Shown here piece by piece: positions 52,038-54,827 of a DNA stretch of 64,000 bases. The DNA comes from Lentibacter sp. (GTDB lineage: Bacteria > Pseudomonadota > Alphaproteobacteria > Rhodobacterales > Rhodobacteraceae). A model generated the notes under the pieces. It was not told where the DNA came from, did not search any database, and was given only the letters and a program-made list of their open reading frames with translations. The position numbers and the translations under genes are program-made. The stretch covers positions 1 to 64,000 of the forward strand of contig JADGEJ010000016.1 of the NCBI GenBank assembly GCA_016744435.1. The letters are read 5' to 3'. The stretch's first letter is position 1, and each line of letters starts with the position of its first letter.

Positions 52038-52613
52038 TTAGGCTCCTAAATGCTGATCGACGATACGCTGCACCATCGGGGCAAAATGCCAGTAGTCGGG
52101 TGTTTGCATGTCGGGGTGCTTGCCCGCTTCATCAAGATAGCGGACTTGGATGATCTTCGCGAGGTTCGGGTTTTGCTCGAAGGTCGCGATCTCGTCAGCA
52201 GGCATTGGCCCGCCTTGCAAGTTGAGCGAGTGGATCGACGCCTCGCTGAGGCGGTCATAGTAGCTGGGTTTGGTTGCGCAAAGGTAGCGCTTGGCCGCGA
52301 CGTGGTGGCGCACACAGTCAGTCACGATTGTGGGGAAGAACGCGGCGAGCACCTCTGCTCCAGCGTCTTCATGGAAGCGGTCTTCGGTGTCACCCATGCT
52401 GAAGGTGCCGAACTCCGAGGTGAAATGTCCGATGTCGTGCAAAAGCGCCGCGACGATGATGTCTTCGGGCAGGCCTTGCTGTTCAGCAATCGTCGCCCCT
52501 TGCAACATATGCTCGGCCATTGTCACAGGTTCCCCGAGATATTCCTCATGCCCGCAGCGCTCGAAAATGTCGCCCAAGAAGGCCACAATCGTCTTGCGTG
52601 TTGGCACCGTCAT
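52038..52613 (-). CDS. HD-domain mixed-valent di-iron oxygenase, TmpB/PhnZ-like
   Basis: [36 protein letters not shown]; overlaps upstream 2OG dioxygenase. Confidence 0.8.
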
Positions 52614-53755
52614 AGCGTGGCTTCAAGCGCCGCGAGCGTTGAAAGCAACCCGTCTTTGTCGGCGTAGCAGCCCTGTAGCCAGCGCGTGCCTTCGCCCGAA
52701 TAGCCCTTGCGAGCATGCAGCACGCGGGTGTTGTCAACGATGAAGGCCTCGCCGGGGGCGAGCTTGAAGGTCACTTCCATCTCGGGGCTGTCGATGATGT
52801 CAGACAGGCGGCGATAGGCGCGGTAGTAGGCCTCCATCGCGTCAAACGGCACGTCCGTGAGCGGCGCAATCGAGCGTGCGTTAAAGCGGATAGCTTGCAA
52901 CGTGCCTTCTGGTGAAAGCTCGATCATCGGCCGGCGCGAGTGCAGCGCAACACCTTCGCTGCCCGTGTAGGCAAAGCGGGCGGAATGCTGGCAGAGCGCG
53001 GCGAAACCCTCGGGGTCTTCCTCTTTCAGGCGCAGCGCACAGGCAAAGCCGTCAACCACCATGTTTTCGCCGCCCTCAGCCGAGTTTTCCAGGCAAGCAA
53101 GCACTTGTAGCGTTGGCTGTGGGTCACGGTAGGGGTTGTCTGTGTGCGCCTGCAAGCCAAGGCCCGTGTAGGCGAGGTTGACGGGGTTCACCTCGGTGCG
53201 CACTTCAAAGTGGCGGCCATAATTTGTCTCGCGGACGAAGCCAAAAACGGCAACGATTTCAAACAGCTCTTCGGGCGTGCCTTGCATGTCGGTGACTTTG
53301 GCAAAGCCGTAGCGGCGGACTGCATCAAGCCAGCTGAGGCGGGTTGCCTCATAGTTTTTCAGCGCATCTAAAGGCGCGCTGGGCACGGCCTCTTGTAGCC
53401 CGCTGCCCCAAGGCTCGGCGTGCTCTGGTGGGTGGCCAAGCGAGCCCTCGTGCGTGACGTCATAGGCATTGGCCATGAGCCAGCGGATGGAGTAGGGGAT
53501 TGCCTTGTTTTCAGGCGCAAAAGTGAGCATAAGCGTGTCGCCCTCAACCTCGGCTTTGCTGATGGTAATGTCGGCGGGCAAGTCAGCCAAGGTGATCAGC
53601 CTTTGGCTATTGCCTGCATCGCGCGTCGTGGCATCTTGGGCGTTGTCGCGCAGCCAAATGGCATGAAAACGCTTGGTGCCAACTTTCAGGATATCGCTGT
53701 TTTCGCTGACAGATACTTCGGTCATCACTGCGCCTCTTTCGGGTTCAAAATACAA
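52610..53755 (-). CDS. gamma-butyrobetaine dioxygenase-like Fe(II)/2OG oxygenase, TmpA-like
   Basis: [61 protein letters not shown]. Confidence 0.8.
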
Positions 53756-54827
53756 TCACGTTGCGCTTGGCACTGCCTGTCTTGGTGTCGGCGATGGCTT
53801 CGTTGATCTGATCAAGTGTCCAGCGGTTCGAGATCAGCTCGTCAAGCTTGAGGCGGCCTTGCTGGTAGAGATCAACCATCCAGGGGATGTCACGTTGGAT
53901 CACTACATCACCCATTTTTGAGCCAATCATTGATTGGCCAACAGCGGCGAAATTAGCAGCTTCATAGCTTGAGGCTGCGCCCGTCGCGGGCATGCCCACC
54001 ATGATAACTTTGCCGCCATAGCCGAGATATCGCGGCGCGTCGTCATAGGCTTTGGCCGCGCCGACGGTGACGAGAACTGCGTCAGCACCACGGCCCAGAG
54101 CCACTTTAGCATCACGCCAAGGGCTTGATTTGGTTGCCAGAACGCCGTCAGTTGCCCCGAACTGTTTGGCGATCTCAAGCTTCTCTTCGCTCATGTCGAC
54201 AGCTACAATGCGACGCGCACCAGCAATCCGCGCGCCTTGGATGGCGTTAAGCCCGACACCGCCCGCGCCGATGACGACAACGTCTTGGCCAGCCCGCAAC
54301 TGCGCCGCGTTGACCACCGCGCCAACGCCCGTGATGACGCCACAAGAGATCAGCGAGGCTGCGTCTTTGGGCATGTCTGCGGGGATCGTTACGATCTGAC
54401 TTTGGTCAACCACAACTTTTTCGGCGAAAGCCCCGCAGGCCATAGCTTGGTGCAGCTTGCCGCCATCGGCTGTTTTGAGTGGGCCTTTGTCGCCATCGTA
54501 GGGCGTGCCGCAGATCGTTGGTTTGCCACTTGAGCAGGCCGGGCAGGTGCCACAAGCACGGATCAGCGTGACGATGACACTGTCACCAACGTTGTAGCCT
54601 TTGACGCCACCACCGAGCGCTGTGATACGCCCCGCAGCCTCGTGGCCATAGACAGCTGGCAGTGAGCCGCCCCATGCGCCGTCAGCAAACGAAATGTCAG
54701 AATGGCAGATCGCCACCGCATCAAGCGCGACTTCAATCTCGCCCATTTCCGGCGCGCGCAACTCCACGGTTTCGATGGTCAGTGGCTCTCCGAATGCGTG
54801 GCAAACGGCGGCTTTGATCGCTGGCAT
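53745..54827 (-). CDS. zinc-dependent alcohol dehydrogenase
   Basis: [27 protein letters not shown] structural zinc site, [15 protein letters not shown]. Confidence 0.9.

Follow-up and report, generated by a model that had tools for sequence, protein, structure and literature searches.

A tmpA-tmpB pair between the dehydrogenase and dehydratase genes of a roseobacter operon in Lentibacter, with two altered residues in TmpA

TmpA and TmpB convert the choline-like phosphonate 2-(trimethylammonio)ethylphosphonate (TMAEP) to glycine betaine and phosphate (PMC10574752, PMC8177086), and structures of the Leisingera caerulea proteins are available (PDB 6npb-6npd, 6npa). In that organism tmpA and tmpB form a two-gene operon with a divergent LysR neighbor. 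The same logic of a dioxygenase paired with an HD di-iron oxygenase is found in PhnY*/PhnZ, which acts on 2-aminoethylphosphonate, and PhnZ also has a YxxE loop. A further relative is gamma-butyrobetaine dioxygenase, which shares a fold family, the HxD..H motif, and aromatic cage positions with the TmpA described here. The remaining point of comparison is a roseobacter operon of an alcohol dehydrogenase (ADH) and an MR/MLE dehydratase (relatives of 3rcy, 3t4w, and 4j3z), normally without tmpAB inside. Here, we describe a locus of the marine bacterium Lentibacter sp. in which such an operon hosts a tmpAB pair.

We analyzed a window of 64,000 nucleotides (contig JADGEJ010000016.1). Its minus strand carries, consecutively, a zinc ADH of the MDR family (53745..54827; Pfam ADH_N and ADH_zinc_N), the Fe(II)/2OG dioxygenase gene tmpA (52610..53725; 371 aa), and tmpB, encoding an HD-domain di-iron oxygenase (52038..52613; 191 aa). 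The initial annotation had described these three genes, a 4-nt overlap between the dioxygenase and HD genes, and motifs of both proteins. All of this was borne out, and the operon is real and was correctly recognized: the tmpA stop and the tmpB start overlap in ATGA (52613-52610), the HD protein has EEYLGEP, HDIGH, and HH, and the dioxygenase has HTD...H and RWLQGCYAD. An overlap between ADH and the dioxygenase had also been proposed, but it requires translation to begin at 53755 with TTG, which is unlikely. The ATG at 53725 follows a plausible ribosome site (AAAGAGG), is where alignments of the tmpA product to close relatives begin, and leaves a 19-nt gap to ADH. On the same strand, a Tet-like MFS transporter gene (54893..56170), usually found upstream of ADH with or without tmpAB, precedes these genes, and a predicted acid-sugar dehydratase of the enolase superfamily (MR_MLE; 50690..51922; Pfam MR_MLE_C/N) follows them as the downstream member of the host operon. 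The locus is like that of Leisingera caerulea in its enzymes, the order of tmpA and tmpB, and its catalytic and cage residues, but its tmpAB lies between the ADH and dehydratase genes and its tmpA has no divergent LysR neighbor.

An insertion of about 113 nt (51925..52037, minus strand) separates tmpB from the dehydratase gene and folds into two strong hairpins (-47.9 kcal/mol, z -7.1). It is absent from a genome of the same genus (G174), where the gap is 1 nt. The first 22 nt of the insertion have five further copies in the genome at 95% identity, often as inverted pairs, whereas the 12-bp stem CGTTTCTATATC/GATATAGAAACG is single-copy. The 22-nt repeat resembles a genome-wide palindromic repeat.

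The proposed resemblance to TmpA/TmpB was supported by curated models, solved relatives, and trees. The dioxygenase scored 546.8 bits against the NCBIfam TmpA equivalog (NF049936; cut-off 400), and its best solved relative was Leisingera TmpA (6npb, 61% identity, 478 bits). Likewise, the HD protein scored 350.2 bits against the TmpB equivalog (NF049941; cut-off 300) and matched Leisingera TmpB best among solved chains (6npa, 78% identity, 339 bits). Its H..HD..H..H..D ligands and YxxE loop, a motif taken from PMC8177086, are present and align with those of 6npa. It is 36% identical to PhnZ, and fell below the cut-offs of both the Phn-HD model (TIGR03276; 196.6 versus 214.6 bits) and the hydroxymethylphosphonate PhnZ model. 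In the dioxygenase, the HTD..H iron ligands and the 2OG-binding Arg are present and are invariant across 130 homologues. The aromatic cage for the trimethylammonium group consists of Y, F, Y, and Y at the positions of Y177, W181, Y194, and Y366 in BBOX, and every TmpA compared retains these aromatics, with Tyr or Phe at the Y194 position. The initial annotation had singled out the replacement of the Cys motif after WLRDN. The absence is real, but we rejected it as an unusual trait of this protein, given that Cys is missing from this stretch in 39 of 39 sequences of the clade that includes the window's TmpA and 93 of 93 canonical TmpA (132 sequences), and is therefore normal for the whole family. 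Separately, a TauD-family fragment with four in-frame stops was seen at G000:C25:29689-29970 (L002) and is likely a pseudogene.

We consider it probable that the window encodes a working TmpAB acting on TMAEP or a near analogue, and that the pair was inserted into, and is co-expressed with, a separate host operon. TmpA would use Fe(II), O2, and 2-oxoglutarate to hydroxylate carbon 1 of TMAEP or of a close N-methylated analogue. The mixed-valent di-iron site of TmpB would then cleave the C-P bond and release phosphate together with glycine betaine, or with the N-methylglycine that corresponds to the analogue. ADH and the dehydratase would serve an independent pathway of their own and not the steps of C-P cleavage. 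Neither PhnJ (C-P lyase) nor any binding protein of the PhnD type scored above cut-off in the genome, and therefore tmpAB may be the genome's route to such phosphonates, although the lack of a PhnD-type protein also counts against this explanation with respect to uptake.

What is new is a branch of TmpA in which two residues of the active-site region are altered. TmpA proteins encoded between ADH and dehydratase genes (hereafter site TmpA), including that of the window, formed one monophyletic clade with support of 100/99 in a tree built without the two positions in question. These positions are Tyr214 and Asn287 of Leisingera TmpA (6npb chain residues 220 and 293, the native numbers assuming an offset of 6 that fits Asn187, Asn287, and Arg288), and they correspond in the window to Ala210 (codon 53098-53096) and Ala283 (codon 52879-52877). 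Ala or Ser occupies both positions in 38 of 38 site TmpA, a set in which three rows are near-copies of others and short contigs may conceal some neighbors. Elsewhere (n = 92), TmpA had Tyr/Asn in 87 cases, His/Asn in three, and Tyr/Ser in two, and both residues were replaced by Ala/Ser in none. A published comparison with DfmD (PMC9296572) counts Asn287 among the residues contacting the phosphonate; among the phosphonate contacts Asn187, Asn287, and Arg288, the window retains the first and the last.

The initial annotation had raised a different substrate on account of ADH; here the idea has another basis, the two substitutions in this TmpA clade. The replacement of two near-invariant canonical residues in every site member, one of them reported to bind phosphonate, counts against ordinary activity on TMAEP or a near analogue. 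It would instead favor a TmpA pocket enlarged or re-tuned for a larger or differently substituted phosphonate, with all four genes forming one pathway in which TmpB would release phosphate and a carboxylic acid, and the dehydratase and ADH would act on the latter. We regard this as unlikely. The cage aromatics are all conserved, as are Asn187, Asn286, and Arg288 in every TmpA compared. Because the site clade is monophyletic, the association between site and residues reflects a single evolutionary event rather than many. The weight of Asn287 is itself uncertain, since the substrate contact of human BBOX is given as Asn292 (PMC12067446), which aligns with the conserved neighboring Asn286. Tyr214 aligns with BBOX His218, adjoining Leu217 of the 2OG pocket (BBOX residues from PMC12067446). 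As to the direction of the residue changes in TmpA, canonical TmpA appeared as one clade in 0% of bootstrap trees, which favors the site clade having arisen within canonical TmpA, but the AU test did not reject the alternative placement with canonical TmpA as its own clade (p 0.39), and GBBH-like relatives likewise carry Ala/Ser at position 287.

TmpB told a different story from TmpA, in that site TmpB was not a clade but comprised several lineages mixed with canonical ones. Well-supported branches of the TmpB tree require a minimum of three switches from one kind of locus to the other, site or canonical, and no site-specific residues were found in the TmpB alignment. TmpB partners therefore look exchangeable between site and canonical TmpA. 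That the same TmpB types serve both kinds of TmpA suggests a similar hydroxylated product, and the swapping of partners speaks against a shifted substrate. As a separate observation, a second, rarer TmpB type occurred at ten loci (L009, L011, L013, L014, L017, L018, L021, L023, L048, and L109), having Ser35, Tyr75, and Asn77 in chain numbering, of which Tyr75 and Asn77 are as in PhnZ. In its eight site loci this type is 58-64% identical to Leisingera TmpB. It is used by both TmpA kinds without tracking the site, and passed the TmpB cut-off in three of three cases tested.

The MFS-ADH-dehydratase unit is, judging from its distribution, an older roseobacter operon that hosts tmpAB. Of 395 genomes of the order, 274 have ADH and 306 the dehydratase, and the two genes are often neighbors where tmpAB is lacking. 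Twelve loci without tmpAB were inspected; in 9 of them ADH and dehydratase genes share a strand and are separated by 11-84 nt, with 11 nt in a genome of the same genus (G218). Among tmpAB loci drawn from 80 genomic relatives and the 395 genomes, canonical ones lack both genes, while others, that of the window among them, carry tmpAB between the two, usually with the MFS gene upstream. The dehydratase's nearest solved chains (3rcy, 3t4w, and 4j3z) are named only as MR/MLE-like. ADH fell below every NCBIfam cut-off, including that of the phosphonate-associated HpnZ (TIGR03366; 112.3 versus 328.1 bits), and a search of a viral collection with ADH gave no match. In quick trees of ADH and the dehydratase, the presence of tmpAB changed 11-12 times, with starred branches forcing at least 4-5 changes, and no residue of either protein clearly followed tmpAB. 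Hence, tmpAB comes and goes at this site, either through repeated losses or through recombination within the flanking regions. One genome (G074) has an amidase-like gene (L142 4642-6063) at the junction of ADH and the dehydratase, where others have tmpAB or nothing.

This distribution bears on the idea of a single four-gene pathway in both directions. That tmpAB shares an operon with a dehydratase whose family acts on acid sugars, is kept in this arrangement across many genera, and has a 4-nt overlap between tmpB and the dehydratase gene in 15 of 38 site loci hints at a shared pathway and counts against two independent ones. Conversely, ADH and the dehydratase are found in most genomes without tmpAB, neither protein varies with its presence, and the amidase gene indicates that the junction accepts unrelated genes. 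In its more specific form, in which the TmpA subfamily has moved to a new phosphonate and TmpB releases a hydroxylated or larger carboxylic acid into one pathway with ADH and the dehydratase, this reading seems to us rather improbable. If true, it would constitute a four-enzyme oxidative phosphonate route recovering phosphate and a sugar-acid-like carbon skeleton.

The initial annotation had suggested that ADH might add a step to the TmpAB route. The same strand and the 19-nt gap to tmpA would suit an auxiliary enzyme, for example one oxidizing a choline-like precursor or an unused 1-hydroxy-phosphonate stereoisomer, but we find this very doubtful. ADH accompanies the dehydratase in most relatives without tmpAB, empty sites and the absence of linked residues weaken the proposal, and canonical tmpAB loci do without ADH. 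Finally, it is scarcely credible that the dioxygenase acts in carnitine metabolism as a gamma-butyrobetaine or trimethyllysine hydroxylase: despite the common fold family and 386.8 bits against the GBBH model (TIGR02409), it missed that model's cut-off (414.75) and that of the TMLH model (TIGR02410; 196.4 versus 268.3 bits) while well exceeding that of TmpA, is 29% identical to human BBOX, lacks the Cys zinc motif, is paired with TmpB, and grouped in the tree with TmpA, apart from a separate outgroup of GBBH-like sequences, so that this identity was rejected at the family level by model cut-offs and phylogeny.

Returning to a tmpAB pair hosted by a separate operon, its history may be read from the LysR gene. 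A divergent LysR gene adjoins canonical tmpA at 71 of the 90 loci with enough upstream sequence. It was present in only 5 of 38 site members, with ADH on one side and tmpA on the other, the position that insertion of a LysR-tmpAB cassette would predict. We propose that a LysR-tmpA-tmpB cassette entered the older MFS-ADH-dehydratase operon at the junction of ADH and the dehydratase gene, founding the single TmpA lineage to which the window pair belongs, and that LysR was subsequently lost in most members of this lineage. After such a loss, tmpAB would probably be transcribed together with the host operon. This putative insertion history, including its direction, is what replaces the earlier explanation of ADH. 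No description of an ADH-linked tmpAB arrangement was found in the literature searched.

These results imply that the equivalog model gives the name TmpA to a whole clade, even though a reported phosphonate-binding residue is missing from it and the usual LysR neighbor is mostly lost. If substrate or regulation differs in this clade, surveys that equate every tmpA/tmpB with TMAEP use would be wrong for some roseobacters. Positions 214 and 287 offer a direct mutagenesis handle on substrate choice in the TmpA enzyme family.
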